Below are positions 2,312 through 18,759 of a stretch of DNA of 40,402 nt, in pieces. A model generated the notes under the pieces. That model made no database searches and was not told the origin of the DNA. It was given only the letters and a program-made list of their open reading frames with translations. The translations under genes and the position numbers were made by a program. Numbering within the stretch: the first letter of the stretch is position 1; each line of letters begins with the position of its first letter. This stretch comes from an uncultured Caryophanales bacterium (GTDB taxonomy: Bacteria > Bacillota_I > Bacilli_A > RFN20 > CAG-826): the NCBI GenBank assembly GCA_946612115.1, contig CAMOEI010000009.1, forward strand, positions 1 through 40,402. Direction: 5' to 3'.

Positions 2312-3154
2312 ATGGAAGAAAATAGACCAGTTAGAAAAGCGAGTAAATTTCCTATTATTTGCCTTGCTATATTAGGATTGATTTTTGCTGAAGCTACCGC
2401 AATGTTGGTACTTCAAGTTATTAAAACAGCAGACACAAAAGGACAAGGTGGAAGTAGCGGAGGAGAGACTCCTATACCAGCTCCTACCCAAGATCCAACA
2501 TACACAATTACATGGCTTAATGATGATGGAACAGTCTTAGAAGTTGACCAAGATGTCGCTCAAGGCGAGATCCCAACTTATGATGGAGTAGCTCCAGCAA
2601 AGTTGTCTGTTGGACTTACATATTATACCTTTGCTGGCTGGAACCACGAAGTGGTTGCTGCTGTTGCTAATACAACATATGTCGCTACATATTCTATTGG
2701 ACATAATAAAGCGACTGTTATCTTTGATATGGGCGGTCATGGTGACCAAGTTGATTCCCAATCTGTCGAATATAATGGCCGTGTAACAAAACCAACTGAC
2801 CCAACCTCAGATGAATACACTTTTTATGGTTGGTATACCGAACCATCATGTACAATTGTGTGGAATTTTGAAACCAACAAAGTAACAACTGATATTACTC
2901 TATATGCAAAGTGGGAAAAAACTATATTCTATACAGTTAGTTTTGATAATGAATATGGCGATCCTATTCCATCGCAAACCATTGCAGCTGGTGGTAAGAT
3001 TACAAATCCTGGCGAACCAGCAAACCTTCCAGATAATATTCACTTTAATAGCTGGATTTATGACGATGGCCATTCTTATATTGAATGGTTGTTTGACACC
3101 ATGGTAGTGACAAGTGACATGACTTTGTTTATGTATTATAGTGAAGCCATTTAG
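2312..3154 (+). CDS. Membrane-anchored InlB-repeat surface protein, copy B
   Basis: This 280-aa paralogue of the preceding gene starts 17 nt after its stop, behind a GAAAGAGG site. It has the same plan: a short cytoplasmic tail, a membrane helix (about residues 13-37, again with FAEATAMLVLQV), a Gly/Ser/Pro linker, the divergent TITWLNDDGTVLEVD repeat and two InlB-type repeats. The last repeat is decayed: its GGHG is replaced by NEYGD and its end reads TSDMTLFMYY instead of the usual LxAxW. DNA identity with copy A is highest around the first repeat, where about 40 bases (2498-2540) repeat those at 1647-1689. This indicates tandem duplication followed by divergence. The gene ends at a strong terminator. 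Function beyond surface display or adhesion is unknown. Confidence 0.8.
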   Translation: MEENRPVRKASKFPIICLAILGLIFAEATAMLVLQVIKTADTKGQGGSSGGETPIPAPTQDPTYTITWLNDDGTVLEVDQDVAQGEIPTYDGVAPAKLSVGLTYYTFAGWNHEVVAAVANTTYVATYSIGHNKATVIFDMGGHGDQVDSQSVEYNGRVTKPTDPTSDEYTFYGWYTEPSCTIVWNFETNKVTTDITLYAKWEKTIFYTVSFDNEYGDPIPSQTIAAGGKITNPGEPANLPDNIHFNSWIYDDGHSYIEWLFDTMVVTSDMTLFMYYSEAI

Positions 3155-3279: not shown

Positions 3280-3900
3280 TTATTTTCTTAATCTTTCTAA
3301 TAGAATAATCGCTACTTGAACTGGCAAACCAATAAAGAATAAGTACCAGTAGTTTCCTCTATCTAACACCGAGATAAAAGCTGCTAATAAAACGCCCCAA
3401 GCAAAGACTGAATTAAGAATGATACTAACTTTATAATCTTTAAAGAATCTTCTAAAGCCTAAAGAGGCGATTAATGCTGATAGTGGAATAGCCCATAAAA
3501 AGACAACCCACCAGCGGTTCTTTGTAAAATTAGCGGTTCCTAGGTTATAAATACTAGCAACATAAATTGTGATGCAAATAAACCATAAAGCGGTAATAAC
3601 TAAGCTGATAATGGTGATCTTTCTAAAATTATCAGGTGTTTTTGTAAACTTAGATTTGAATTCATTAAAAGTGTGTTTGGTCAAAATAAAGTCAACAGTG
3701 ACCCCATAGTAATCAGCGATTTGTTTTAAAACCTCGACTGATGGAACAACACTTCCTTGTTCCCATTTTGAGACTGTTTTGTCTGAATAATTGAACTTTT
3801 CGCCGAGCTCTAATTGAGTTAATCCAGCGCTTTTTCTGAGATAAATTAAATTCTCTCCAATAATTTTTTCTAACTCTTCCATACGAAATATTTTTAACAT
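3280..3900 (-). CDS. XRE-family helix-turn-helix regulator with C-terminal four-helix membrane domain
   Basis: Residues ~13-70 form a Cro/C1-type helix-turn-helix (GLTQLELGEKF, SDKTVSKWEQG, PSVEVLKQIADYYGV). The remaining ~110 residues hold four hydrophobic segments (about 94-116, 130-149, 160-181 and 184-200), so the DNA-binding domain is tethered to the membrane. Two in-frame ATGs lie 18 nt apart (3900 and 3882) and neither has a Shine-Dalgarno, so the start is uncertain. The gene is divergent from two membrane-anchored proteins of unknown family and separated from them by 171 bp containing a perfect palindrome. Its likely job is to sense an envelope or membrane signal and control itself and the divergent genes. 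That role is inference from layout. Confidence 0.8.
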   Translation of the reverse strand: MLKIFRMEELEKIIGENLIYLRKSAGLTQLELGEKFNYSDKTVSKWEQGSVVPSVEVLKQIADYYGVTVDFILTKHTFNEFKSKFTKTPDNFRKITIISLVITALWFICITIYVASIYNLGTANFTKNRWWVVFLWAIPLSALIASLGFRRFFKDYKVSIILNSVFAWGVLLAAFISVLDRGNYWYLFFIGLPVQVAIILLERLRK

Positions 3901-3968
3901 ACACGAGAGTGGATTTCAATGCATTTATATAATAATTTGATAATTTTTAATAAGAAAATGCATCCAAT

Positions 3969-3983
3969 TCTCAAATTTTGAGA
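3969..3983. promoter_or_regulatory. Perfect 15-bp palindrome, candidate XRE operator
   Basis: TCTCAAA-T-TTTGAGA is perfectly symmetrical and lies between the divergent XRE gene and the gene at 4072. Further GAGAG/CTCTC half-sites occur nearby (about 3905, 3998 and 4023). Symmetry and position fit an operator for the dimeric HTH protein encoded next door. Confidence 0.5.
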
Positions 3984-4048
3984 GTTATTTTCTCGACTCT
4001 CACATTTAGGAAATAAACTTTAGAGAGCGTGCGCCTTGCGTATATGTA

Positions 4049-4054
4049 TATAAT
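4049..4054 (+). promoter_or_regulatory. -10 box upstream of the 294-aa protein gene
   Basis: TATAAT lies 17 nt before the ATG at 4072. No good -35 is found at 17 nt (AGCGTG at 4026-4031), so activation or an extended -10 is possible. The 5' leader would be only about 10 nt, without a Shine-Dalgarno. Confidence 0.45.
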
Positions 4055-4071
4055 TTGCCTCGGTAAATTTT

Positions 4072-4956
4072 ATGATCAACAAAACATTACTGATTTACTT
4101 AATAGTTGGAGGCGCCGCTCTAGGAGTAGGAGGAACCACCGGAGTTGTTGTGAAAAGAGTCACTGGTAGCGAGCAAGTTATTTACAAGGGATTCGATATC
4201 AATAACTACATCATGGATTCGGATAACTTATTAATTGAGTTTGAGAATTATCACGGCAGTTCACCTGAAAGACAATTCACAGTCGCAGAGCTTATTAACA
4301 TCTCCTTAGAAAAGTACCGTAGATGTGAGAACTCATGGTCTCAAGGTATTGGTCTAGCGGACACGATAGTTAAGCAGACAATTCGTAACGCTCAGGTGAA
4401 AAATGGTAACCAATATTATGAAGAGTCTATTTCTCACTCTGATATGGTCTCTGTGGCTAACAAGGTCTATCAAACTGGCGTTGGTACCGAAATCAAACTT
4501 TATTCAGGAACAAATGTTTCTACTGAAAATGCGAATTTCGGATCTACACCTAAGATCTTCGCTTCAGAAGATTATAAAAAGTCCTATGGTAAGACGCTTG
4601 ATGAGATGTTTATCTACCTCATCTGTAACGAAACAGTAAATTCAGGCGAATGTAAAAAGCAAGATGATGGATCATATGTCATTACGTGTGAGTTAGATAC
4701 AGTTATATCTACGTACATGTATAAATATCAAATGAAAACTTTATCAAACTTAGACGGACTTCCAACATTCAGTTATGTGAAGCTCAAATACGTTGTATCA
4801 AGTGACTTCATGTTAAAAACATGTGAAGTTGATGAAAAATTTGAAGCAAGAATGGGTGTTCCTGCAACGATTAGAAACACAATTACCTACACCTATCACC
4901 CAAATGAGTATCTTAAGATACCTGAACCAAATGAAAAATTCAATTATTCCAAATAA
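4072..4956 (+). CDS. Membrane-anchored protein of unknown family (294 aa)
   Basis: No known family was recognised. The N-terminus (about residues 5-27, LLIYLIVGGAALGVGGTTGVVV) is a single membrane segment or uncleaved signal anchor. The remaining ~265 residues are hydrophilic, rich in Tyr, Asn, Ser and Thr, and should be outside the cell. Three cysteines near 185-200 and one further on could form disulfides. There is no lipobox and no LPXTG motif. The gene is first in a pair: the 1152-aa protein starts 16 nt after its stop behind a good ribosome-binding site, so the two are probably co-transcribed and may act together at the cell surface. It is divergent from the membrane-bound XRE regulator. 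The short leader lacks a Shine-Dalgarno. Confidence 0.65.
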   Translation: MINKTLLIYLIVGGAALGVGGTTGVVVKRVTGSEQVIYKGFDINNYIMDSDNLLIEFENYHGSSPERQFTVAELINISLEKYRRCENSWSQGIGLADTIVKQTIRNAQVKNGNQYYEESISHSDMVSVANKVYQTGVGTEIKLYSGTNVSTENANFGSTPKIFASEDYKKSYGKTLDEMFIYLICNETVNSGECKKQDDGSYVITCELDTVISTYMYKYQMKTLSNLDGLPTFSYVKLKYVVSSDFMLKTCEVDEKFEARMGVPATIRNTITYTYHPNEYLKIPEPNEKFNYSK

Positions 4957-4972
4957 AGGAGAATAACGTCAT

Positions 4973-7900
4973 ATGAAAGAAAAGAAAGTAAAAAAGATAA
5001 AACAATTGCCTGGTAAGATTGCTACCGGAGTTAGCGCTTTTATTCTTGCAGCAGCAGGAGCATATTTCCTCACTCCAGTAAAAACTAGAGTGGTGGATTT
5101 AGGAAAGCCAAAAAGCGAAGATGAAGAATATAGTCAAAACTTTGATCACTTCTTAACTAAATTACTCGATTACACCGAAAATGGTATCGATGGTTTACAC
5201 GCTGAATTTGTTGATTTCAACGTTCAATTCCAAGAAGAAGGCAAGGCCTTAAATAATATTGATTTAGATGGTTATTTTGATTTCAAGATGAGAAATCTTA
5301 ATGACATCGAACTCAAAATGGACGCTGATGTGGATTATAACGGAGTTCATCTTCCATTAACTTTTGGTTATGCAGATAGCACTGTCTTTATGGCGTTTAA
5401 AGATCTCAAGATTAAATCTTCAAGCCAAAACACTGACAGTTTATTTACCATCTTTAAATATTATTTAACTTCAAGCGCAGGTTTAAATATTGACGCTGAA
5501 GGACAACTTGATAAACTCGTTAGTTCAGTTATGGGTAGTTCTTCAACAACTGATTTAACTAGCTCATTATCTTCTATTACTGGTGGTGGAATGAGTTTTA
5601 AACTCGGTGATGAAGAAACTGAAAATGGTTATTTATTCACCGTAACTGTCAATAGCAATTCAATGGCGGTTGATATCGAAATTACAACTGATAAAGATTA
5701 CACAATGGAAAACGTTAACTTTAAAAAGTTAGAGGTTGCTGGAGTAAAAATTAGTGGTCAAATCGATATGGATATTAGACCAATCAATATTACAACCCCA
5801 GATTTCTCTAACGGAGAATGGGTTGAAATGATTGCCTATTCTGGTTGGATTGAAAAACTTGCTAACTTATTAGGAGAATCTAATCAAAAATTAGGTATGA
5901 CTTTTGGTTTAGATGTTTCCTTAAAAGGAAAAGAGATGGGCTCTATTAAAGGAGATGTCAATGTTGATTTCTCTAGATTAATTGATTTTACTTCAATTCA
6001 AAATGAGCCAGGTCACGATACCCCTCATATCCCAGGAGATGATCCAAAAGATGAAGGATATGAAGATAAGATTAACGCTAAACGTTCTAAGATGCTTGAT
6101 ACCGTCAAAGAAATGACTAGCAAAGTTCAATTAGGCGTCAATGTTAATATGTATGGTCAAAAAGGAACATTAGAGGAAGCGCCTTTATACGCGACCCTAG
6201 GTGTTGACTATGTCAACAATGATGGTTATATCAGATTAAATGAAAACGAAGGTGTAATGAAAGCGGTCGTTGAAAGCGACACCATTAACTGGTTAATTTC
6301 CGATATGCCAAATCTCATTAATGACACCATTAAATCATTAGGAGTGAATCTTGATTCTTCAAAATTATCTTCTTCATTTGATTTCATCACTGATTCAACT
6401 GTCGTTTCTAGTTTGAAAGAAGGAGATTATTCAAAAATCTTAAATATTTTAAAGACATTAAAATCTACTTCAGAAGATCACATTTATGAAACAGAAGTTG
6501 ATAATGAAATTAAGGTTCAGACTATCACCGAAGGTCAAATTCTCGTTGAGTTAGATTTATCTATTTTAGGATTAGGCGAAAACGCTCTTGTGAAAGTGAT
6601 TCTTGATTCTTCAAGAAAACAAGACGCTCACGTATTAGACGTTGAAGTTAATAACCTTGAAATGGGAGATGTCGAAATCAACTTCAACGTAAAATCATCT
6701 GACTTCAAAGAAGTCAATCCAGGTGATAAAACTACTTATGACAATATGAATTTTTTACCAGGTGTGATTTCTCAAGTCGCAGGAATGGTTCAATCTAAAG
6801 TTGGTTCCTTTGGTCTAGAAGGAAGCGTCTTAGATGATAATGGCTTAGGGCTTACATTAACTGGAGATGCCGTTTTCTCAGATGTCTCCACTAATAGATT
6901 TGGATACGGCCAACTTGAAATCAAACAATATAAATATCACGCTGATAAGGTGTGGTATACACATAATATCGCCCTTGATGTTAGAAATAATAATCCTTCA
7001 ATGATGTCTAAGGACAACAACATCAAGTTCGTCTATGGAAAAGTCAATCCAGGAGAAGGAGAGCACAATATTCAAGGCAAGATGACTGTTCAAACTATCC
7101 TTGATATTAAAGATCTCGTCATGGAATTTGTTAACGGCGCTGCTGGAGAGAGCAAATTCACCAAATTCTTAGCGCCTCTTAAAGAGATGATGACTATGGG
7201 TGAAATTAGCGAAATTGTCGAAAGTGGAGATTACCTTAGCTTTGCTAAGAGCACCTTTATTAAGAAGATTGCTCAATCTAATGGCGGTAACGCTCTTGAC
7301 ATCGTTATTGCCGGAAATATTTTGGGTCTTGATAGCGATTTAAATTTAAGACTCGAACTCGAAGATAATGGTAATGGTTCCAAGAGAATGACACATATTA
7401 GACTCGTTAATCTCAAAGCGGGTGGGAAGACTATTAACTTCTCCGCTTATATCGACGAGAACTATAACGGGGAAGATCACACTCCACTTAATTTAAATGC
7501 CCAATATATGGACTTCTCTGATATCAAAACTTTATTAAGATTTGGTATCAATACCACCGAATTAGGCGTCTATGAATTAAGTGGAACAATTAATTTAACC
7601 GCCTTAAAGATTTTCAATACTGATTTCTATCTCAATGCCTATGTCGTTGTTGACGGTGTCAATGTTAAAGTTTATGTGACCACCCATGTTAAGAAACTAT
7701 TAAGCTTTGCTTCTGGTCTCATTCAAGAAGATTATGGCCTATTTGATGGCACTAAAGACGTTAAATCAGAATTGACCTTTGAAACTTATAAGACAGGTGA
7801 TCCAAATAAGACAAATGATATCGGAGGATATTTCGATATTAAGAGATCGATCACTCACACTGAAACTTACACTGACTGGACATTCCCATTTGTTCATACT

Positions 7901-8431
7901 AGAGACGCATATAAGTACGTCCATTACCGCTGCACAAGCGATTACTTCTTAGACAACATCATCTTCTATTTACTCGGTGGATTTATGGGCATCAAGAAAG
8001 ATACAGTTGATAGCATTGGTAACTTAGCTTTAGGAAATGATTCTGAAGAGAAGGCGCCAGGAGAATACACAAACGTCTTCACAAGTACTGGTTTCCAATA
8101 TGATGAAGCTACAACAACATGGAATGTTGGAATTAACATCGGTGCACTAACTGGTATTGAAGCTCTTCAATCAATTGAAGCGACAATCGTTGGAAAAGAA
8201 GTTGATGGAAAAGGTTATTTCCATAATTTAGATGGTACACTTAACATCCAAGCCTCATTAGCGAGTATCGTCATCGGATTTGATTTAACTCTTGATAACA
8301 TCGATCCTAGTAAGACCGATTGGAGTCAAGATATCGCTGATGCATTTGCAGGTATTAGAGGTGTCTCATTCTCTAGCAATGATGGCTGGGGCAGTTATTT
8401 AAATAACACCAGTAAATACCGCACCATCTAA
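4973..8431 (+). CDS. Very large membrane-anchored extracellular protein with three degenerate beta-rich repeats (1152 aa)
   Basis: The start is well defined: AAGGAG at 4956-4961 lies 11 nt before the ATG. A basic N-terminus (KEKKVKKIKQL) and one membrane segment (about residues 15-33) are followed by ~1100 extracellular residues. I see three loosely related blocks (roughly 45-340, 370-650 and 690-920). Each has amphipathic helices and a GDY-like motif leading into beta strands ending in patterns such as LEVNNLEMGDVEINFNV and IRLVNLKAGGKTINFSA. This alternation resembles LolA/LppX-like lipid-carrier half-barrels, but that is only an impression. The remaining ~230 residues, rich in Tyr, Trp and Thr, may be a separate domain. 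There is no cell-wall sorting signal. It is probably co-transcribed with the upstream 294-aa gene. Confidence 0.65.
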   Translation: MKEKKVKKIKQLPGKIATGVSAFILAAAGAYFLTPVKTRVVDLGKPKSEDEEYSQNFDHFLTKLLDYTENGIDGLHAEFVDFNVQFQEEGKALNNIDLDGYFDFKMRNLNDIELKMDADVDYNGVHLPLTFGYADSTVFMAFKDLKIKSSSQNTDSLFTIFKYYLTSSAGLNIDAEGQLDKLVSSVMGSSSTTDLTSSLSSITGGGMSFKLGDEETENGYLFTVTVNSNSMAVDIEITTDKDYTMENVNFKKLEVAGVKISGQIDMDIRPINITTPDFSNGEWVEMIAYSGWIEKLANLLGESNQKLGMTFGLDVSLKGKEMGSIKGDVNVDFSRLIDFTSIQNEPGHDTPHIPGDDPKDEGYEDKINAKRSKMLDTVKEMTSKVQLGVNVNMYGQKGTLEEAPLYATLGVDYVNNDGYIRLNENEGVMKAVVESDTINWLISDMPNLINDTIKSLGVNLDSSKLSSSFDFITDSTVVSSLKEGDYSKILNILKTLKSTSEDHIYETEVDNEIKVQTITEGQILVELDLSILGLGENALVKVILDSSRKQDAHVLDVEVNNLEMGDVEINFNVKSSDFKEVNPGDKTTYDNMNFLPGVISQVAGMVQSKVGSFGLEGSVLDDNGLGLTLTGDAVFSDVSTNRFGYGQLEIKQYKYHADKVWYTHNIALDVRNNNPSMMSKDNNIKFVYGKVNPGEGEHNIQGKMTVQTILDIKDLVMEFVNGAAGESKFTKFLAPLKEMMTMGEISEIVESGDYLSFAKSTFIKKIAQSNGGNALDIVIAGNILGLDSDLNLRLELEDNGNGSKRMTHIRLVNLKAGGKTINFSAYIDENYNGEDHTPLNLNAQYMDFSDIKTLLRFGINTTELGVYELSGTINLTALKIFNTDFYLNAYVVVDGVNVKVYVTTHVKKLLSFASGLIQEDYGLFDGTKDVKSELTFETYKTGDPNKTNDIGGYFDIKRSITHTETYTDWTFPFVHTRDAYKYVHYRCTSDYFLDNIIFYLLGGFMGIKKDTVDSIGNLALGNDSEEKAPGEYTNVFTSTGFQYDEATTTWNVGINIGALTGIEALQSIEATIVGKEVDGKGYFHNLDGTLNIQASLASIVIGFDLTLDNIDPSKTDWSQDIADAFAGIRGVSFSSNDGWGSYLNNTSKYRTI

Positions 8432-8517: not shown

Positions 8518-9183
8518 ATGAAAAAATATCTATATTTATTAATTCCATCTATCTTATTAGCAATCTTTGTTGTTTTTACTATTTTAGTTAAAACAATTGA
8601 TGTTAGTTATATCAACAATTCTTATTACCTTGGTTTTTCTACGATGAATCTAGCGGTCAATGATTTTGTTAAATCTCTAGGCTGGTCTACAACCTTCGAT
8701 AAGATTAGTGATGTATTTTTATATGTTTCCTTCTTATTTCCATTTGGCTATTTGATTATTGGTCTAGTCCAGTGGATTAAAGGAAAATCTCTTAAGGCTG
8801 TCGATAAAGAATTATTTGTTATGGCGGGATTATATGTTTTAATTGCGATTGAATATTTGATCTTCGAATTAGTGAAAATTAATTTCTCTCCAGTAGAAAA
8901 TAAAGCCTCCTATCCTTCTAGTCATGTCTTTATCTTCGTCACCTTAGTTTGTAGTGGAGCCTACTTATATAATAAGTATGCGGTTAAAGGAGATAAGTTT
9001 AGTATACTAAGCATTATTTTCGCTGTCATCGCCTCTATTGGAATGAGTTTAATTAGACTTGGAAGTGGAAAACATTATCTCACCGATATTATTGGTGCGG
9101 TTTTATTATCTAGTTTCCTAGTTGCTACATATTACTTTGTTAATCGCTACGTTATAGTGCGTCTTAATTGCGATAACAATTAA
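8518..9183 (+). CDS. PAP2-family membrane phosphatase
   Basis: PAP2 enzymes remove phosphate from lipid substrates such as phosphatidate, phosphatidylglycerol phosphate or undecaprenyl pyrophosphate. Motif C2 is PSSH at 133-136 (usual PSGH). Motif C3 is intact as R180-x5-H186-x3-D190. Motif C1 (K-x6-RP) is degenerate: Lys120 is present but the RP is not, so activity may be altered. About five to six membrane segments span the 221 residues, with the active site presumably facing outward. The start codon follows the inverted-repeat element and has no Shine-Dalgarno. Downstream lie a GT2 glycosyltransferase and a PlsC-like acyltransferase, which suggests a lipid or glycolipid substrate. Confidence 0.8.
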   Translation: MKKYLYLLIPSILLAIFVVFTILVKTIDVSYINNSYYLGFSTMNLAVNDFVKSLGWSTTFDKISDVFLYVSFLFPFGYLIIGLVQWIKGKSLKAVDKELFVMAGLYVLIAIEYLIFELVKINFSPVENKASYPSSHVFIFVTLVCSGAYLYNKYAVKGDKFSILSIIFAVIASIGMSLIRLGSGKHYLTDIIGAVLLSSFLVATYYFVNRYVIVRLNCDNN

Positions 9184-9205: not shown

Positions 9206-10522
9206 ATGAATATTAATTATGATATTTTGACATATATACTTGGAATTTCATCACTCGTGATGATTGTTTTCTTATTAGGCATGTCGATATATTACTTAAT
9301 CTATTGGAGTGTTTCCGCTAGAAAAGTGACTCCTGTTCCTCATAGTGATAAGCTCACAAATTTTGCGGTTCTTATCGCTGCGAGAAACGAATCTCACGTT
9401 ATCACTCATTTACTTGAGAGCTTAAGTAGGCAAACATATCCGAAAGAATATTATTCAGTTTATCTCATCGTTGAAAGTCGCAATGACCCGACGATGCAAA
9501 TCGCTAAGGAATATGGATATCACTGTTTTATTAGAGACCACATTACAAGCGATAGAAGAACTAAAGGCTTTGCCTTACAAGAATGTATCGACCACATTAA
9601 TCGCCATGATAGATATTACGATGCTTATATGATTTTTGACGCTGATAACATCCTTGATGATAACTATCTAGAAGTAATGAATGATTTAAGACAAACCGGT
9701 GTCAGAGTGGGACTAGGATATCGTAACTTCACTAATGCGAGCACCAACTGGTTAACTTTGGGTTCAGCGATTATGTTTTCATACATGAATCAAATCACTT
9801 CTAAAGCGAGAAGTATTTTATTCCATAAAGCAACTTTAATGGGCACTGGATATTTCGTTGATCGAAGTGTCATTGAAGAAGCTGGAGGATGGATCTTTAC
9901 TGGAATGACTGAAGACATTCAACTCACCTCGTATTGCATCTATCACGATATCTATATGCGTTATTACCCACTTGTCTGTTTTTATGATGAACAGTCCTCC
10001 GATTTTAAAACTGTCCATAATCAACATTTAAGATGGTTATTTGGTTATTTTGAAAGAAGAACTTTCTTAAAAAAAGCAGGCGTTCAAGATGACTACCACT
10101 CCAAAAACATGCAAAAGCTCATCAAATTTGAATTTGAATGGGGATTAATTCCATTTGTTATTTATAACGTCATCACCTTTGTCATCATGGTTTTAAGCTT
10201 TGTTTTTGGTGCTTTAGCGATTTTCTATGGAAAAGATTATCACGTTGGTTTTTTATTCGCTACGGGCGGATTTGAAGCACTGATGCTTTATAGCGTCTTT
10301 GTCGTTCCAGCGTTGCTTTCAGTTATTCGAGATAATGAATATTTAAAATTATCAACTGGCAAGAAAATCGTTGGTGTTCTTACTTACTTATTCTATTTTT
10401 ATGATTTCGTCTTCGCGTTTTTAGACGGCTTCTTCCATCCTTCTAAGAGAAGAACTTGGAAAAAGATTCAACACACCGGCGAAATTAATAACGAAGATTT
10501 GGTGAACAAAAGTGAACAATAA
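9206..10522 (+). CDS. Membrane-bound family 2 glycosyltransferase
   Basis: This 438-aa inverting glycosyltransferase has an N-terminal membrane helix (about 8-34), a cytoplasmic GT-A domain (about 52-280) and three to four C-terminal membrane helices. Diagnostic residues are DAD at 145-147 (metal/nucleotide sugar), TED at 235-237 (catalytic base) and QHLRW at 273-277 (the QxxRW motif of processive GT2 enzymes). The architecture resembles beta-glycan synthases and membrane glycolipid synthases. Product and donor sugar cannot be told from sequence alone. The gene overlaps the following acyltransferase by 11 nt, so the two are translationally coupled and probably work on the same envelope lipid or polymer. 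Confidence 0.85.
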   Translation: MNINYDILTYILGISSLVMIVFLLGMSIYYLIYWSVSARKVTPVPHSDKLTNFAVLIAARNESHVITHLLESLSRQTYPKEYYSVYLIVESRNDPTMQIAKEYGYHCFIRDHITSDRRTKGFALQECIDHINRHDRYYDAYMIFDADNILDDNYLEVMNDLRQTGVRVGLGYRNFTNASTNWLTLGSAIMFSYMNQITSKARSILFHKATLMGTGYFVDRSVIEEAGGWIFTGMTEDIQLTSYCIYHDIYMRYYPLVCFYDEQSSDFKTVHNQHLRWLFGYFERRTFLKKAGVQDDYHSKNMQKLIKFEFEWGLIPFVIYNVITFVIMVLSFVFGALAIFYGKDYHVGFLFATGGFEALMLYSVFVVPALLSVIRDNEYLKLSTGKKIVGVLTYLFYFYDFVFAFLDGFFHPSKRRTWKKIQHTGEINNEDLVNKSEQ

Positions 10523-11327
10523 AGATTGGAAAAAGACAAAAACTATCTACTGGAAAGATGAACTTCACGATGATTTTGATGAAGTTGGTTTATCTCGTCC
10601 AAATGTTCCAGAAGGATATAAATATAAAAGAACAAATCCGATTAATAACTTTTTCTCTGGAATTTTATATCATGTAATTGCTAAACCAGTCCTTGGTTTA
10701 TATTGCCTATTTAAAGGGATTAAAATTGTTAATAAAAAAGAACTTAAGAAATTAAAAGGACAAGGAGCGTACATTTACTCAAATCACGTAGCGATTAGTG
10801 ACGTCTTTAAATTTCAATCCTTTGTTTTCTTTAATAAGAAAAGAGTGAACATTATTGGCTATAGCGATTCTTTAAGTATGCCGATAGTGAGAAATCTTTG
10901 TCGAGCCTTAGGTTACTTGCCTCTCCCTTTAAAAGGAGATTTAAATAACATGGTGGCGTTAACTGAATCTTTAGATTTCTACACTAAAAAGGGACAATTT
11001 ATCCTTATTTATCCAGAGGCTCATATTTGGCCTTATTATACGAAGATTAGAGATTTTAGAAGTGGTTCATTTATCTACCCTGCTAGAAGTATGTCTCCAG
11101 TAATTCCAATTGTGACAATTTGGAGAAAACCAATACTTGGTAAAAAACCAAAACAAACACTTGTAATCGGAGAAATCATTTATCCGAAAGAAAATAAATC
11201 GATTATGGAAAATAAGGATTATCTCCATAAGAAATGTTTAGAGCAAATGAAAGAGATTTCATCTAGATATGAACAATATGAATACATCACATACATCAAA
11301 GTAGAGGAGGGAAGTAGCAATGATTGA
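10512..11327 (+). CDS. PlsC-like 1-acylglycerol-phosphate acyltransferase family protein
   Basis: The acyltransferase motif NHx4D is present as NHVAISD near residue 91, and a degenerate second block YPEAH near 163 replaces the usual EGTR. This fits a lysophosphatidate or related lipid acyltransferase at the inner face of the membrane. The product is 271 aa. The start is GTG at 10512 inside the end of the glycosyltransferase gene, with a GGTG-like site just upstream. Its stop is TGA, which shows that TGA is not tryptophan here. A second, better-conserved PlsC-like gene lies at 28571, so this one may serve a specialised glycolipid rather than bulk phospholipid. Confidence 0.75.
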   Translation: MNNKDWKKTKTIYWKDELHDDFDEVGLSRPNVPEGYKYKRTNPINNFFSGILYHVIAKPVLGLYCLFKGIKIVNKKELKKLKGQGAYIYSNHVAISDVFKFQSFVFFNKKRVNIIGYSDSLSMPIVRNLCRALGYLPLPLKGDLNNMVALTESLDFYTKKGQFILIYPEAHIWPYYTKIRDFRSGSFIYPARSMSPVIPIVTIWRKPILGKKPKQTLVIGEIIYPKENKSIMENKDYLHKKCLEQMKEISSRYEQYEYITYIKVEEGSSND

Positions 11328-11775
11328 ATTTAAAAGAACCTTAACAGTGCCAGAATTTCGTGAAAGATCAGAAGTCTATTCCGCTCTTGGATATCGAGTT
11401 GTTTCTCAAAAAGAAAAAGGTTATAAAACTAAAATCACTTTTAAAGTGGAAGATAAATATGAAGAGCATTTTCATGAGATACATAGATTTGAAAAATCTA
11501 TCTATCGTAAAGGACCTAGTTTCTTACCGATTATCTTTTTAGTGATCGCCGCTTTTGCCTTAATTACTGTTTATGTCGTTTTAATGGCGGACCGCGGACA
11601 ATATTTTGATATTGTTCCTAGTGCCTTAGAATTTTTATTACCAGCGGGAATATTACTTATTTCCGATGTCATATACACATATTTTTATTTCTCAATTAAT
11701 TTGAAATTGGTCAAAGAACCAAAACCAAATATTGATGATATTAAGACTAGAGTGGAACAAATAATCTCAAAATAG
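11320..11775 (+). CDS. Small two-helix membrane protein of unknown function
   Basis: The product is 151 aa, with a cytoplasmic N-terminal ~65 residues of alternating charged/beta character, two membrane segments (about 66-88 and 100-123) and a short charged tail. It overlaps the acyltransferase by 8 nt and is preceded by a strong GAGGAGGG site inside that gene. The MacB-like ABC gene follows 9 nt after the stop. No family was recognised. Tight packing suggests it assists the acyltransferase or the ABC transporter. Confidence 0.65.
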   Translation: MIEFKRTLTVPEFRERSEVYSALGYRVVSQKEKGYKTKITFKVEDKYEEHFHEIHRFEKSIYRKGPSFLPIIFLVIAAFALITVYVVLMADRGQYFDIVPSALEFLLPAGILLISDVIYTYFYFSINLKLVKEPKPNIDDIKTRVEQIISK

Positions 11776-11784
11776 GAGGCGTTT

Positions 11785-14700
11785 ATGTTAGAACTTATCA
11801 ATATCAAAAAGGATTACGCCTTAAAAGATCAAGAACCAGTGCACGCCCTAAAAGGAATTTCTTTGAAATTCCGCGCTAACGAGTTTGTAGCGATTTTAGG
11901 ACATTCTGGATGTGGTAAAACCACATTACTTAACATTACTGGTGGATTAGACCACTATGATGAAGGAGATTTAGTCATTAAGGGAATCTCCACTAAAAGA
12001 TTTAATGACAGCGATTGGGATACCTATCGAAATCATTCAGTAGGCTTTGTTTTCCAGTCCTATAATTTAATTCCTCACCAAACCATTATTAAAAACGTTG
12101 AACTTGCTTTAACGATTTCAGGAATCAAAAAAGAAGAAAGAATCGCTAGAGCAAAAGAAGCTTTAGATCGAGTCGGCTTAAAGGATTTATATAAGAAAAA
12201 ACCAAATCAACTCTCTGGAGGGCAAATGCAAAGAGTGGCGATTGCCCGTGCTTTAGTCAATAATCCAGAAATCGTCTTAGCGGATGAGCCTACAGGGGCG
12301 CTTGATAGTGAAACCTCACTTCAAATCATGGATTTATTAAAAGAAGTGAGTAAATCTCACCTCGTTATTATGGTTACCCATAATCCTGAGCTCGCTGAAA
12401 AATACGCTTCTAGAATTGTCAGGATGAAAGATGGTTTAATCACTGATGATTCTAATCCATATGATGGAGAGGCTTCTTATAAAGAAGAAATGCCTCTAGA
12501 AGAAACAAAAGTCGCCTCTAAAGGCAAGAAAAAGTCTTCGATGGGTTTCTTTACCGCAACCGCTTTATCAGTCTCTAATTTAATCTCTAAATTAAAAAGA
12601 ACAATTCTTGTCGCTGTGGCGGGAAGCATTGGAATTATTGGAGTTAGCACAATTTTAGGTGTTTCCGTTGGAGTGAGTAATTTCATCAATGAAATGCAAA
12701 ACGATATGCTTTCTAGCTACCCAATTGAAATTGCTGAAAAGACTTTAGATACATCCTCTTTAATTTCTGGACTATCTAATGATGATAAAAAAGAGATTCA
12801 AAAGTTTGATCTTAAAACTCAAGTTGGGATGGATTCGATGATTGCCTACTTGATGAGTAAATACACTGATTTCACAAATATTAAGACTAACGATATCAAT
12901 GAATATTTAGTGGATTACATTAGTGATATGCCTAAAAGCTATTATTCAGCGATTGAAATGAATTATGGCACCGATCCAACTAATAACATTTTTACAGCCT
13001 TCTCTCCTAAAAAAGAAGATCCTAGTTACGATGTTATTTCTGTAAACGGATTAACTCAAAGATATATCAAGACTTTGATGACTGTTAAAGGATTTGAACA
13101 ATATGCGACTTTCGTTGATTTATTCACTTCCTTTATGAAGAAATTACCAGATGAAAAGGATTATATCCTTTCTCAATATGATTTAATCGGAGAAAACTCT
13201 AGATGGGCTGAAAACGATAACGAGATGATGTTGGTGGTTGATGGAGAATCAACCTTAACCGATTTAATCCTCGCCCAGATGGGTTATTACCCTCAAGATG
13301 AATTCTTAAATATCGCTAAAAGAGCGGTCAAAGATAATGAAGCTCAAAAGAAATATAACGAGTCCCAAAAGACTGCAGAAGATAAAAAAGAATATGAAGA
13401 GACTATCGCCTGGAATAAGGAGCATTATCCTTATGATTCAGTCTTTGATATCGATGAGATTTTAGACCATGAATTTGTCTATTATCCTCACGATGCGATT
13501 TATTCCACAACTGCACCAGAAGAATATAAACATCTTGTTCATAGTGAACAAGTCACTATTAATTTATCTGGTACATTTAATAGTCAAACCGCAATTTTAA
13601 GTTTGACTTACTCTAATGCTGCGGACACTTTAGTTGGCACATTCTTACTTCTTGACGCAGATAATGTTATTCAACAAAATCAAACCGTTATCTTATTAAG
13701 AGATAATGATTACGAAGTGACTGATCCAAACGCTTCAGCGATTGATGGTAGATGGTCAATTAACGCCTTAGGAATGGGAATGGATATCGTTATCACTTCT
13801 TCAAATAAGCACCAAAGTCCATTAAGCGATTTAACTTATGAATATGATGCGACCGCAAGTGGAACGATAACCGTTGGTAGCTATAATGTACCTATTAACT
13901 TTACCTCTGGTAAAATCAGTGAAATTCACCCTGTAACTCCAGATTATTACTATGACGCTTATATTGATCGAACTAGTGAAATGTATCTTAATCCTACTAG
14001 TGTTGGCGGTAAGAAGATGAAGGTTACCGGCATATTAAAAGCTAAAGAATCAACAAGATTTGGAACATTATCTCGTGGAGTATATTATACGAACGCTTTT
14101 GCGGATAAATATATGACTGATGCTAGTGATAGTAATATTGTTAATGATTTTAAGACCCATATTGAAACCAAGATGTTTAACATTTCTAATTTCAATGCTT
14201 ACGTCTTCTTCCATTATGATGATTACACTAATGATGATGGTTCTGAAACTTTTGAACCAGAAGATAAAAAAGGCTATGCTAGTGCGTTAAATGGAGATTT
14301 ATCAACCTCAATGGCTTCAATCTTCTTATCTTTCTTACCAAATGCTGGAAATAATTTGGATAACGAAAAAGTTCACCTAAGAGCAGTATCTGGTCTTAAG
14401 ATAGTGGAAACTCCAGATGAATTGAATCCAGGAGAAACAATTTATTCAACGGAGCATTTACCTCAAAATGTTCAAATCTATCCAAAGAACTTTGAAAGAA
14501 AGAATAACGTTACTCGTTATTTAGATAGATGGAATAAAGATGGAGACATCATCATTAATGATGAACCACTACCAAAAGAGAAGAGAAGTGAGATTACATA
14601 TGATGATACGATCAGCATGATTGTTTCAGTTATTTCTACTTTAGTTAATGTCATCTCGATTGCCTTAATTGCCTTTACTTCCTTATCCTTAGTGGTCTCT

Positions 14701-15051
14701 TGCTTTATGATCGCGGTTATCACTTATATCTCGGTCATGGAAAGAGTTAAAGAAATTGGTGTTATCCGTTCTTTAGGCGGAAGAAAGAAAGATGTCTCTA
14801 GATTATTTATTGCTGAGAATTTGATTACTGGCTTATCTAGTGGTATTATCGGTATCTTATTCACCTATTTGTTACAGTTAATTATCAACATTATTGTTAC
14901 TCCTTATGGAGTCACAATGATTTGTGCCTTACCATTTACTTATGCGTTAATTATGATTGGTATTAGTGTCTTACTTTCTGTGATAAGTGGACTTATCCCA
15001 TCATTCTCTGCAAGTAAACAAGATCCTGTTATCGCTTTAAGGAGCGAATAA
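11785..15051 (+). CDS. ABC transporter fusion: ATPase plus MacB/FtsX-type permease
   Basis: Residues 1-230 form an ABC ATPase: Walker A GHSGCGKTT (39-47), signature LSGGQ (143-147), Walker B IVLADE (163-168) and switch His199. This is the LolD/MacB-type subfamily. The fused permease has one membrane helix at about 268-295, a ~650-residue extracellular region, then three C-terminal helices with the FtsX hallmark (VMERVKEIGVIRSLGG, then SASKQDPVIALRSE at the end). Such mechanotransmission transporters move lipoproteins, peptides or lipids, or signal across the membrane. ATPase-permease fusion is usual in MacB, but 1088 aa is long because of the large outer domain. Its stop overlaps the rimO start (TAATG). 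Confidence 0.85.
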   Translation: MLELINIKKDYALKDQEPVHALKGISLKFRANEFVAILGHSGCGKTTLLNITGGLDHYDEGDLVIKGISTKRFNDSDWDTYRNHSVGFVFQSYNLIPHQTIIKNVELALTISGIKKEERIARAKEALDRVGLKDLYKKKPNQLSGGQMQRVAIARALVNNPEIVLADEPTGALDSETSLQIMDLLKEVSKSHLVIMVTHNPELAEKYASRIVRMKDGLITDDSNPYDGEASYKEEMPLEETKVASKGKKKSSMGFFTATALSVSNLISKLKRTILVAVAGSIGIIGVSTILGVSVGVSNFINEMQNDMLSSYPIEIAEKTLDTSSLISGLSNDDKKEIQKFDLKTQVGMDSMIAYLMSKYTDFTNIKTNDINEYLVDYISDMPKSYYSAIEMNYGTDPTNNIFTAFSPKKEDPSYDVISVNGLTQRYIKTLMTVKGFEQYATFVDLFTSFMKKLPDEKDYILSQYDLIGENSRWAENDNEMMLVVDGESTLTDLILAQMGYYPQDEFLNIAKRAVKDNEAQKKYNESQKTAEDKKEYEETIAWNKEHYPYDSVFDIDEILDHEFVYYPHDAIYSTTAPEEYKHLVHSEQVTINLSGTFNSQTAILSLTYSNAADTLVGTFLLLDADNVIQQNQTVILLRDNDYEVTDPNASAIDGRWSINALGMGMDIVITSSNKHQSPLSDLTYEYDATASGTITVGSYNVPINFTSGKISEIHPVTPDYYYDAYIDRTSEMYLNPTSVGGKKMKVTGILKAKESTRFGTLSRGVYYTNAFADKYMTDASDSNIVNDFKTHIETKMFNISNFNAYVFFHYDDYTNDDGSETFEPEDKKGYASALNGDLSTSMASIFLSFLPNAGNNLDNEKVHLRAVSGLKIVETPDELNPGETIYSTEHLPQNVQIYPKNFERKNNVTRYLDRWNKDGDIIINDEPLPKEKRSEITYDDTISMIVSVISTLVNVISIALIAFTSLSLVVSCFMIAVITYISVMERVKEIGVIRSLGGRKKDVSRLFIAENLITGLSSGIIGILFTYLLQLIINIIVTPYGVTMICALPFTYALIMIGISVLLSVISGLIPSFSASKQDPVIALRSE

Positions 15052-16343
15052 TGAAAAAAGTCGGTATTGTTTCATTAGGTTGTCATAAAAATCTCGTCGA
15101 TAGTGAAAATATCCTCGGGCTTTTTGACCGTAATGGTTATGAAATCACTAACGATCCAAGTGAAGCGGATGTAATTGTTGTTAACACTTGCGGTTTTATT
15201 GAAGACAGCAAAAAAGAAAGCATTGAAAATATTTTAGAGATGCTTAACTACAATAAAAAAGTAGTGGTTACTGGTTGTCTAGCGGAACGATATTTAGAAG
15301 ACCTAAAAAAAGAAATTCCAGAAGTTGATGCCTATATTCCAATCAGGGAATATTCACAATTCAATAAACATCTATCAAAGATAGATAATTCAATTGATTC
15401 CTCTTTAGGAATCGATGATGATTATCGCATTGTCTCTACTGGTCCATTTTCAGCCTATCTAAAAATTGGAGAAGGCTGTGACAATAGGTGTAGCTATTGC
15501 GCAATTCCTTTAATTAGAGGTCATTTTGTATCTAGAGACTTTGATGCGATTATTAAAGAGGCAAAAGATTTAGCCTCTAATGGAATTAAAGAAATCGTGG
15601 TTTTAGAGCAAGACACCACCAAGTACGGCATCGATTTAAAAGATGAAAGAGCAAACATTGTTTCTTTATTAAAAGAGTTACTTAAAATCGAAGAACTCGA
15701 GTATATTCGATTACTTTATTTATATCCTGATGAGATTAGTGATGAATTAATCGATTTGATTGGAAACGAACCTCGCTTAACTCCTTATTTTGATATTCCA
15801 ATTCAACATAGTGAATCTCATATCTTAAAAGATATGTATCGTAGAGGAGACAAAGATTTTTTACGTAATTTGTTTAAAAAAATTAGAACTAAAGTTCCTA
15901 ATGCAGTTATTAGAACCACAGTTATGGTGGGATTCCCAGGAGAGACAAGTGAAGATGTTGATAATCTCATCTCCTTTATGAACGAAGTGGAATTTGATCA
16001 TTTAGGAACATTTACTTATTCTCCAGAAGATGGAACACCTTCTATTAATTTCCCTAATCAAGTGGAGGAATGCGAGAAAAAGAATAGAAAAGATAAAGTG
16101 ATGAAAGCCCAACAAAAGATCTCTTATAAACTAAATAAGAAACATGTTGGAGAAGTTATGGAAGGCTTAGTCATCGGAAAAGAAAACGAGAACTATTTAC
16201 TTAGAAGCTATTGGAACGCGCCTGATGATGTCGATGGAAAAATCTATTTCTCATCAGATAAAAATTTAAATCTAGGAGATAAAGTTAAAGTCAAAATCAA
16301 TAACGCCTTTGTCTACGACTTAATGGGGGAATATGTCGATTAA
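15051..16343 (+). CDS. rimO: Ribosomal protein S12 methylthiotransferase RimO
   Basis: RimO is a radical-SAM enzyme that methylthiolates a conserved Asp of ribosomal protein S12. The 430-aa protein has the UPF0004 domain with cluster cysteines C11, C47 and C76, the radical-SAM motif C143-x3-C147-x2-C150, and a C-terminal TRAM domain. The N-terminal SLGCHKNLVDSE is the RimO signature, separating it from MiaB. It begins on the last base of the ABC gene stop and overlaps the next gene by 11 nt. This housekeeping enzyme therefore sits inside an envelope/carbohydrate operon. Confidence 0.93.
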   Translation: MKKVGIVSLGCHKNLVDSENILGLFDRNGYEITNDPSEADVIVVNTCGFIEDSKKESIENILEMLNYNKKVVVTGCLAERYLEDLKKEIPEVDAYIPIREYSQFNKHLSKIDNSIDSSLGIDDDYRIVSTGPFSAYLKIGEGCDNRCSYCAIPLIRGHFVSRDFDAIIKEAKDLASNGIKEIVVLEQDTTKYGIDLKDERANIVSLLKELLKIEELEYIRLLYLYPDEISDELIDLIGNEPRLTPYFDIPIQHSESHILKDMYRRGDKDFLRNLFKKIRTKVPNAVIRTTVMVGFPGETSEDVDNLISFMNEVEFDHLGTFTYSPEDGTPSINFPNQVEECEKKNRKDKVMKAQQKISYKLNKKHVGEVMEGLVIGKENENYLLRSYWNAPDDVDGKIYFSSDKNLNLGDKVKVKINNAFVYDLMGEYVD

Positions 16344-18759
16344 TTTATTGCCACATGAAATATCAGGATTTAACAGAGTTAAATCGGTTGCCTCTGAATG
16401 CACGTTATTTTTTAAGCGTGACAAATCTTTCCCAATTAAAGAACCTTGTTCAGTAGTTTTGATTGGAAGTGGAGTTAGACACACAGTTAAAGGCGGAACG
16501 GGAAGTGGCGACGTTAATTCAAGATATTTCATGAATATCGAAGACGCTTTTACTGAAGCGGGTTTTGATGTGACTTCATCGTCTTGGCTTAAGATGTATG
16601 ACGAATATAAAAAAGAAAGATTCCCAATTCATATTGCTAGAGTTAAAAAAGAAGCTAAAGAATTAGGAGTTATTCCTGCCGCCCACGGGGTGGGTAAATT
16701 CAATTACGACGAGGAATTTGATTTTAATGTCGCTAGATTTTCTGGAGATATCGCTATTTATGTTTTATCTCGAGATGCTGGAGAAGGACATGATCGAGAA
16801 CTAATTAAAGGAGATGTTTATCTCACCGATGGTGAAATTAGAGACATTCTTTATCTAAATGAGCACTTTGAAAAGTTTATGCTCGTACTTAATGTCTCTG
16901 GAGTAGTGGATTTAGAACCTGTTAAAGAAGTGAGAAATATTCTTTATCTTGGCCAATTAGGTGTCGCGACAAGTCAAACTCTAGTGGATATCATCTTAGG
17001 AAAAACTTATCCAAGCGGGAAATTATCGACTACTTGGACCAAGATTAAAGATTATGAATATATCAAAGATTTTGGAGATTATCACAATACTAGGTATATC
17101 GAAGGAATTTATGTTGGATACCGATATTTCGATATCAATAAAATAGATGTCTCTTATCCATTTGGATTCGGACTTGGATACACTGATTTTAAATATGAAT
17201 ATCTAAGTACAAACGCTGATGGGTTACATGTCAATTTGAAGGTTAAGGTCACAAATATTGGTGAGTATCCTGGAAAAGAAGTTATTCAAGTATATCTATC
17301 TTCTCCAAAAACTGAATTAGATAAGCCAGAACAAATCTTGTGTGCTTTTAAGAAAACCAAAGAGCTTCAACCTAGTGAAAGTGAGATTTTAGACATTTCG
17401 TTTAGACTTTATGATTTCCCAAATTATAGTGTCAGTAAACAAGCTTACATTTTAGAAAGTGGCTTCTACTCTATTAAAGTTGGCAATTCATCTAGAAACT
17501 TAACTAATGTCATCAAGCTAAAACTAAACGAAGAACTTATCGTTAAACAAGTTAAGAACCAATTTGTCCATCCTGATTTTGTTGATTTGAAATTTGAAAA
17601 GGAATATTTGGATGATGATCAAACAGAAATAATTATTTTAGATTCATCAAAATATACGACAAAAGTCACTCATTATTGTGAAAATTATCAAAAAACTCCA
17701 AGTGAATTTGTTATGGGATTAAGTGTAAATGAACTCATTCATCTTTCAGTTGGAGATTATAAAAGTGGCATTAGTGGAATGATTGGGCAATCATGTTCTC
17801 AAATTCCAGGAGGTGCTGGAGAAACTAGTTTAAGAGTAAAGAATTTGCCTTCTTTATCAATGGTGGATGGCCCTGCTGGACTTAGAGTAATCAATGAATT
17901 TATTGTCACTCCAAAAGGTGTTTATGAGATTAGTGAAGATTCAATTTGGAAACAGATTAAACATTATCTGCCTTCAATCTTGGTCAAGCTATTAGACAAG
18001 AAGAAAAATGAAAAGAAAAAAGGAACTAGAGTTTATCAATTAACTACCGCTATTCCGGTGGCAACCGCTTTAGCTCAATCGTTTAATCCGATGGTGTTAT
18101 ATGAAATGGGTAGGTTAGTAAGTTCGGAGATGAATTTATACAATGTTGATATCTGGTTAGCGCCTGCCTTAAATATTCATCGCTCTATCTTATGTGGACG
18201 TAATTTTGAATATTATTCTGAAGATCCTTATTTAAGTGCGATATGTGCTTCTAGTATTGTTACTGGTGCTCAAGAAAATAGTAGTCATATTGTTACTATT
18301 AAACATTTTTGCTGCAATAACCAAGAGACAAATAGAACAAACAATAATTCAATGGTGTCTGAAAGAGCGTTACGCGAATTCTACTTATACGGCTTTGAAA
18401 AGACGATTGAGTGGTCAAATCCTCATTCGATTATGACTAGCTATAATCTAGTTAACGATTTACATACATCACAAAATAAGAACCTAGTTACTCATATTCT
18501 TAGAGATGAATGGAAATATGATGGTTTAGTGATGAGCGATTGGATTAAAACTGGTCAATTAAATTACAAAAAATCAATTTATCCAGGTATTAATGCTTAT
18601 AAACAACTTTTAGCGGGTGTTAATTTGACGATGCCTGGCGCTAAAAGTGATATTAAAGACATTAAGAAAGCATTAAAAAGAAAAGAAGTCTCTATAGAGG
18701 ACTTAAGAAATAACGCTGAAATAGTGTATAGCTGGGTACTGAAAGTAAAAAATCATTAA
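16333..18759 (+). CDS. Family 3 glycoside hydrolase with swapped domain order
   Basis: This is a probable beta-glucosidase-type enzyme. The usual GH3 order is barrel, alpha/beta sandwich, FnIII. Here the sandwich (about residues 38-290, including GGTGSGD) comes first, then an FnIII-like domain (about 295-395), then the GH3 barrel (about 465-808). The barrel has DGPAGLR, the KH substrate-binding pair (IKHFCCNNQE) and GLVMSDW with the nucleophile Asp736. This order is known from some ruminal Firmicutes beta-glucosidases. There is no signal peptide, so the enzyme is cytoplasmic and should act on imported oligosaccharides or glycolipid sugars. The start overlaps rimO by 11 nt behind GGGGGA. No sugar transporter is adjacent. 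Confidence 0.87.
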   Translation: MSINLLPHEISGFNRVKSVASECTLFFKRDKSFPIKEPCSVVLIGSGVRHTVKGGTGSGDVNSRYFMNIEDAFTEAGFDVTSSSWLKMYDEYKKERFPIHIARVKKEAKELGVIPAAHGVGKFNYDEEFDFNVARFSGDIAIYVLSRDAGEGHDRELIKGDVYLTDGEIRDILYLNEHFEKFMLVLNVSGVVDLEPVKEVRNILYLGQLGVATSQTLVDIILGKTYPSGKLSTTWTKIKDYEYIKDFGDYHNTRYIEGIYVGYRYFDINKIDVSYPFGFGLGYTDFKYEYLSTNADGLHVNLKVKVTNIGEYPGKEVIQVYLSSPKTELDKPEQILCAFKKTKELQPSESEILDISFRLYDFPNYSVSKQAYILESGFYSIKVGNSSRNLTNVIKLKLNEELIVKQVKNQFVHPDFVDLKFEKEYLDDDQTEIIILDSSKYTTKVTHYCENYQKTPSEFVMGLSVNELIHLSVGDYKSGISGMIGQSCSQIPGGAGETSLRVKNLPSLSMVDGPAGLRVINEFIVTPKGVYEISEDSIWKQIKHYLPSILVKLLDKKKNEKKKGTRVYQLTTAIPVATALAQSFNPMVLYEMGRLVSSEMNLYNVDIWLAPALNIHRSILCGRNFEYYSEDPYLSAICASSIVTGAQENSSHIVTIKHFCCNNQETNRTNNNSMVSERALREFYLYGFEKTIEWSNPHSIMTSYNLVNDLHTSQNKNLVTHILRDEWKYDGLVMSDWIKTGQLNYKKSIYPGINAYKQLLAGVNLTMPGAKSDIKDIKKALKRKEVSIEDLRNNAEIVYSWVLKVKNH

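Follow-up and report, generated by a model that had tools for sequence, protein, structure and literature searches.

A conserved three-gene unit of small-genome Bacilli with a membrane-tethered XRE regulator, a candidate operator and two surface proteins of predicted LolA/LprG type

LolA and LprG carriers are best known from cells which have a second membrane or a mycolic-acid layer. The LolA beta-clam superfamily as published includes LprG, LolA, LolB, RseB, EPD and VioE, of which LolA and LolB are lipoprotein carriers, RseB senses and VioE is an enzyme, and the sheet of LolA, VioE and EPDR1 has 11 strands (PMC6363788). LprG binds and moves triacylglycerides (PMC10576003, PMC4709180). Among transmembrane transcription regulators the helix-turn-helix (HTH) is the commonest domain and most of these proteins (56%) are single-pass (PMC10269533). 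Here we describe a three-gene unit lying within positions 3280-8431 of contig CAMOEI010000009.1 (assembly GCA_946612115.1), from an uncultured Caryophanales bacterium of the GTDB lineage Bacillota_I; Bacilli_A; RFN20; CAG-826. The whole stretch analyzed, positions 1 to 40,402 of the forward strand (40,402 nucleotides), is called the window. The trio consists of a regulator gene on the minus strand (206 amino acids, aa) and two genes on the plus strand for membrane-anchored proteins of 294 and 1152 aa, and its features are as follows.

3280-3900, minus strand: regulator with an XRE-type HTH (about residues 14-71; HTH_3, E 8e-14) and four membrane helices predicted from hydrophobicity
3967-3985, no strand: candidate operator ATTCTC-AAATTTT-GAGAGT, 11/12 against the consensus ACTCTC-N7-GAGAGT, containing a 15-bp palindrome at 3969-3983
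3996-4010, plus strand: second, imperfect operator copy (ACTCTC half-site, then ACATTTAGG), seen in the alignment and kept in close relatives
4049-4054, plus strand: likely -10 box TATAAT of the 294-aa gene promoter, in a conserved column block
4072-4956, plus strand: 294-aa membrane-anchored protein with one predicted LolA/LprG-type beta-clam domain (about residues 41-294; AlphaFold2, Foldseek)
4973-8431, plus strand: 1152-aa membrane-anchored protein with predicted tandem beta-clam repeats at about residues 53-275, 284-590 and 592-845, and probably at 846-1130 (HHalign, AlphaFold2, Foldseek)

A preliminary description of this DNA, made from its letters, had pointed to a membrane-tethered XRE regulator with four helices, facing two orphan membrane-anchored proteins across a 171-bp gap with a perfect 15-bp palindrome, and all of this was borne out. 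Exactly 171 bp (3901-4071) lie between the regulator and the 294-aa gene, the palindrome reads TCTCAAATTTTGAGA with the architecture 7+1+7, and 16 bp separate the 294-aa and 1152-aa genes. Each surface protein begins with a single hydrophobic segment which has no lipobox, and neither matches a Pfam or NCBIfam family. In the open-licence literature no paper was found which describes the regulator/294-aa/1152-aa unit; what this analysis adds is the operator, conservation across the order, the evidence from the split locus, the fusion, the statistics on the repeats and the match in structure, all given below.

The conservation of the three-gene module is well supported. Of the 18 other genomes in the genus, 17 have both surface proteins and the remaining one is 72% complete; both proteins also occur in other families of the order. 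The neighbourhoods were read in 48 genomes having a 294-aa homologue, which belong to three families and more than 12 genera; the 1152-aa homologue lies directly after the 294-aa homologue in 44 of them and the divergent four-helix regulator adjoins it in 37. The trio recurs across the three families while the flanking genes vary, and it is therefore treated as a unit. A single-sequence search of the genome contigs with the 1152-aa protein returned nothing and an alignment of the 294-aa family gave matches; among 196 genomes from the order 146 match the profile of this family, as do 39 of 247 sampled from the class. The 294-aa domain also stands, in several other families of the order and class, at the N-terminus of proteins of about 900-2800 aa, some with 1152-like repeats behind it, and these include giant proteins of about 1900-2800 aa (L090, 8578-14808; L178-L186) which start with a 294-like domain and in some cases carry the 1152-like repeats. 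This natural fusion of the two families argues that both proteins work together.

The four hydrophobic segments of the regulator are located at residues 97-115, 131-149, 160-178 and 186-204, and four such segments were found in 17 of 19 regulator homologues; besides the HTH domain almost no part of the protein would lie outside the membrane. With a DNA-binding domain and at least one predicted transmembrane helix in one chain, it is by definition a transmembrane transcription regulator. It resembles the described members of that class (PMC10269533) in this combination and differs from them by its four helices, its little outside domain and its conserved candidate site and target operon.

The palindrome taken alone is not significant, as an equally good one occurs in 6% of shuffled gaps, and it is among the best conserved stretches in an alignment of ten gaps. 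The consensus ACTCTC-N7-GAGAGT is matched at 10/12 or better in 25 of 37 non-redundant intergenic regions against 0.19 expected from dinucleotide shuffles, and at 11/12 or better in 16 of the 37 against 0.01 expected, these expected counts being a guide and no exact probability since the regions share descent. The 7-bp spacer was the best among nine spacers tested, and from 60 permutations of the half-sites only the true one stands out (25 regions), the next best being a shifted version with 7. Conservation of the operator is well supported. It lies about 60-80 bp upstream of the TATAAT and near the expected site of the regulator's own promoter. No -35 box of the 294-aa gene was recognisable at the usual spacing, where the candidate is AGCGTG, and no sigma-70-like promoter was found on the plus strand; the operator position together with the absent -35 box would fit self-repression of the regulator and activation of the pair.

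The 294-aa protein was modelled by AlphaFold2 from 24 sequences with pLDDT 83.7 and pTM 0.80, and the model has about 11-12 strands and lid helices, that is, a strongly curved antiparallel sheet with a helical lid matching solved members of the superfamily. Foldseek against the PDB placed LprG at the top (3mh8, 3mha, 3mh9; E 1e-4, probability 1.00), followed by LolB/LolA, RseB (2p4b, 2v43), an EPD protein and VioE; the LolA-type PDB matches of the two surface-protein models are 8orn, 9gtx, 8cgm and 9tp6. On this model its assignment as a new member of the LolA/LprG beta-clam superfamily is well supported. A PDB sequence search with the 294-aa family gave no match, and some distant relatives of the protein resemble lipoproteins.

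Three degenerate repeats reminiscent of LolA/LppX had been suspected in the 1152-aa protein, and both suspicions found support: HHalign probabilities between the segments 53-275, 284-590 and 592-845 are 96, 71 and 98%, whereas reversed controls reach 3% at most and column-shuffled ones about 1%, and structure comparison agrees with the LolA/LppX resemblance for both surface proteins. In the model the helices and strands of segment 846-1130 follow each other much as in the repeats; no sequence similarity to these is detectable, and the segment is probably a fourth repeat domain. Sequence similarity to the 294-aa protein was detected for none of the four segments. In the AlphaFold2 model, a weak one (pLDDT 69.6, pTM 0.50), the Foldseek matches with probability 1.00 are exclusively LolA, LolA3 and LprG. 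Matches to barrels (LptD, OmpF, FimD, OrfX2; probability below 0.6) were regarded as artefacts, the model being long and rich in beta structure, and the PDB sequence search with the 1152-aa family gave an uncharacterised protein (5j5l/5j5k, E 0.007) and Shiga toxin B subunits (E at least 0.07), which were rejected as chance matches having no Foldseek support. Profile searches assign neither surface protein to a known family; with this result, and with gene order and palindrome kept in relatives, the preliminary description withstood both of the checks that it had named for itself. Among 21 and 19 members of the two families no LolA, LppX_LprAFG or other LolA-like Pfam was above cut-off, and the homologues of both proteins have scattered chance-level Pfam matches only.

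The closest solved structures for the 294-aa protein are those of LprG, which is also matched by the 1152-aa protein and which, in the LprG/LppX system with Rv1410, represents a mycobacterial surface-side carrier of acylated lipids whose gene is beside a transporter. The window proteins differ in having no Pfam sequence similarity to it and a helix anchor in place of a lipobox; the partner here is a tandem-domain protein, and the transporter is an ATP-binding cassette (ABC) pump, not one of the major facilitator superfamily, and is not conserved outside the genus. With LolA/LolB and LolCDE the locus shares a predicted beta-clam fold and, in the window lineage, a MacB/LolCDE-like ABC gene in the same run, but its proteins are membrane-anchored whereas LolA is a soluble shuttle, and the MacB-like ABC is no conserved partner of the pair. 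The soluble shuttle, conserved pump and LolB acceptor of a LolA-LolCDE sorting system are thus not what is found here, and we know of no outer membrane in these Bacilli. RseB resembles the 294-aa model in its beta-clam fold, and the locus in its tie to gene control; RseA or sigma-E partners were not seen, and the window regulator has its own HTH.

Downstream of the trio there is a run of genes, each of which is a lineage-specific member of the operon.

8518-9183, plus strand: PAP2 phosphatase (Pfam PAP2, E 1e-7)
9206-10522, plus strand: membrane glycosyltransferase family 2, GT2 (Pfam Glyco_tranf_2_3, E 2e-18)
10512-11327, plus strand: PlsC-type acyltransferase (Pfam Acyltransferase, E 3e-9)
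11320-11775, plus strand: 151-aa protein with two hydrophobic, predicted membrane helices and no family (Pfam/NCBIfam, hydrophobicity)
11785-15051, plus strand: MacB/LolCDE-like ABC transporter, ATPase and FtsX-type permease in one chain (ABC_tran, E 3e-35; FtsX, E 4e-17)

The ABC gene matches the MacB model with E 1e-78, yet stays below the equivalog cut-off. These enzyme and ABC genes form one run with the trio in 8 genomes and two operator-sharing blocks in 7, and PAP2 follows the 1152-aa gene in close relatives whose contigs reach that far. In the seven split genomes, all of the genus (G001, G003, G008, G011, G014, G017, G018), the genes of the two surface proteins lie at one place, together with PAP2 if the contig reaches that far, and without the regulator, which is found elsewhere and divergent from GT2, the acyltransferase, the 151-aa gene and the ABC gene. 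The operator is present between the regulator and GT2 in 7/7 and ahead of the 294-aa gene in every one except G017, where the contig stops at that point. Its retention at both places ties the site to the regulator and links the lipid-type enzymes and the ABC pump to the same control in these lineages; from these patterns we infer that the operator is bound by this regulator. The split state may derive from one rearrangement of a window-like order.

A general association of the 294-aa family with MacB-type ABC transporters was considered and rejected, as the neighbouring ABC genes examined in other families belong to different types (ABC_membrane with DUF1854, or a protein with a duplicated ATPase). 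RimO and a glycoside hydrolase family 3 (GH3) protein, which close the gene run, are likely bystanders and were not counted as part of the system. The GH3 gene (16333-18759, plus strand) has a permuted order, with the C-terminal domain first and the N-terminal domain last, and is kept at the end of the run in relatives. Just upstream of the regulator gene two adjacent paralogues (1446-2294 and 2312-3154, plus strand) have Listeria-Bacteroides (Flg_new) repeats and an N-terminal hydrophobic stretch. A peptidase M6 gene (immune inhibitor A-like) is beside the regulator in several close relatives (L061, L062, L064, L065, L066), and in the split-locus clade (L069, 1833-4006, and relatives) two co-directional genes lie ahead of the 294-aa gene, one for a calcineurin-like phosphoesterase whose start resembles that of a lipoprotein and one for a membrane protein.

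The source genome is 1.23 Mb in size and 96.5% complete, and its named relatives are uncultured Bacilli or 'Erysipelotrichaceae' metagenome-assembled genomes, several labelled yak, goat or horse. A search for Mur ligases found none in the host genome, so that the host is probably without peptidoglycan, in agreement with the prediction made for the RFN20 families CAG-826 and CAG-288 (PMC10868615). Most relatives have one weak match only, within an open frame about 400-480 codons long, presumably a folate enzyme, and two more distant Bacilli have seven and eight matches. Genome G023 (L080), of a mostly Mur-ligase-poor family, has four Mur-ligase matches and still has the trio, which is thus not tied to wall loss.

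Taken as a whole, the explanation we favour, and consider rather probable, is that the trio unites regulator and effectors in a conserved unit of small-genome Bacilli, in which a new LolA-superfamily pair serves lipids or lipoproteins on the outer side of the membrane under a trans-membrane regulator. The 294-aa protein would form one beta-clam domain and the 1152-aa protein three to four in tandem, each anchored by its N-terminal helix with the remainder outside the cell. Since the superfamily members LolA/LolB and LprG carry such cargo, the pair may bind or pass on lipids or lipid-anchored proteins; lipid binding, cargo, direction of transport and sensing are all proposals. The four-helix XRE protein, staying in the membrane, would sense membrane or lipid state, bind ACTCTC-N7-GAGAGT between the divergent genes and control its own gene and the pair. 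In the window lineage PAP2, GT2, the acyltransferase and the MacB-like exporter would be under the same switch, and on account of this common run a glycolipid which those enzymes make and move is the probable cargo there.

Several points weigh against this explanation. No sequence profile ties either surface protein to LolA or LprG, known members are matched with modest TM-scores (about 0.5 of target length), and the confidence of the 1152-aa model is low to medium (pTM 0.50). A single-membrane cell has no outer membrane as a delivery target. The LolA fold also includes non-lipid proteins, for example VioE (PMC6363788). The operator was undetected in about a third of the 37 regions, and genome-wide the site counts do not exceed a reversed-pattern control, which rules out a genome-wide regulon and speaks for a small one. 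Across most of the order the trio has no lipid-enzyme neighbours, and in both G010 and G016 the block from PAP2 to the ABC gene is unlinked and without the operator; wider control is therefore not general. The link to PAP2, GT2, acyltransferase and MacB-like genes drawn in the preliminary description accordingly stands for the window lineage, as one run or two blocks, and fails for G010 and G016 and for other families, where only PAP2 in one genus lies next to the trio.

The pair could instead take up host or gut lipids and hand them to the membrane, the regulator reporting lipid shortage. A host without Mur ligases fits the peptidoglycan-deficient RFN20 families (PMC10868615), and on a cell without a wall the surface proteins would directly face the outside, where large anchored ectodomains with a lipid-carrier fold would suit uptake; P116, a surface protein of a wall-less bacterium (Mycoplasma), extracts host lipids (PMC10023570). 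It is like the pair in its large anchored ectodomain and, by analogy, in lipid handling, but its published fold differs and it is not among the sequence or Foldseek matches listed. Synthesis enzymes and a MacB-like pump joined to the unit in the window lineage suggest making and exporting, and G023, with its four Mur-ligase matches, has the unit too, so we hold uptake to be unlikely. A purely structural or adhesive role, with a LolA-like fold, an ordinary autoregulated XRE switch and no lipid function, would agree with a large, fast-evolving ectodomain, no catalytic family and neighbours which vary outside the genus; it is rendered quite improbable by the recurrence of LolA/LprG matches for two separate proteins, and the one-chain fusion and vertical conservation across the order are less typical of adhesins. 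Still more doubtful is an RseB-like envelope-stress sensor, in which the beta-clam proteins detect misplaced lipoproteins or lipids and signal to the regulator with no carrying. RseB is among the Foldseek matches and the linkage of regulator and 294-aa gene is very consistent, but the 1152-aa tandem protein is bigger than a sensor requires, a sigma/anti-sigma partner was not seen, and the pair and regulator are unlinked in seven genomes. A bolder reading seems improbable to us: that the tandem domains of the 1152-aa protein and the 294-aa domain form a continuous apolar groove on a wall-less, single-membrane cell, as a surface lipid-transfer device made of repeated LolA units, with a membrane-reading regulator.

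The predicted LolA/LprG-type family described here, with its tandem and giant fused forms, spans an order of small-genome gut Bacilli, and the window genome is one without cell-wall ligases. This suggests a dedicated, undescribed machinery for surface lipid trafficking in wall-less bacteria, and the operator and gene pair allow direct experiments although the organisms are uncultured.

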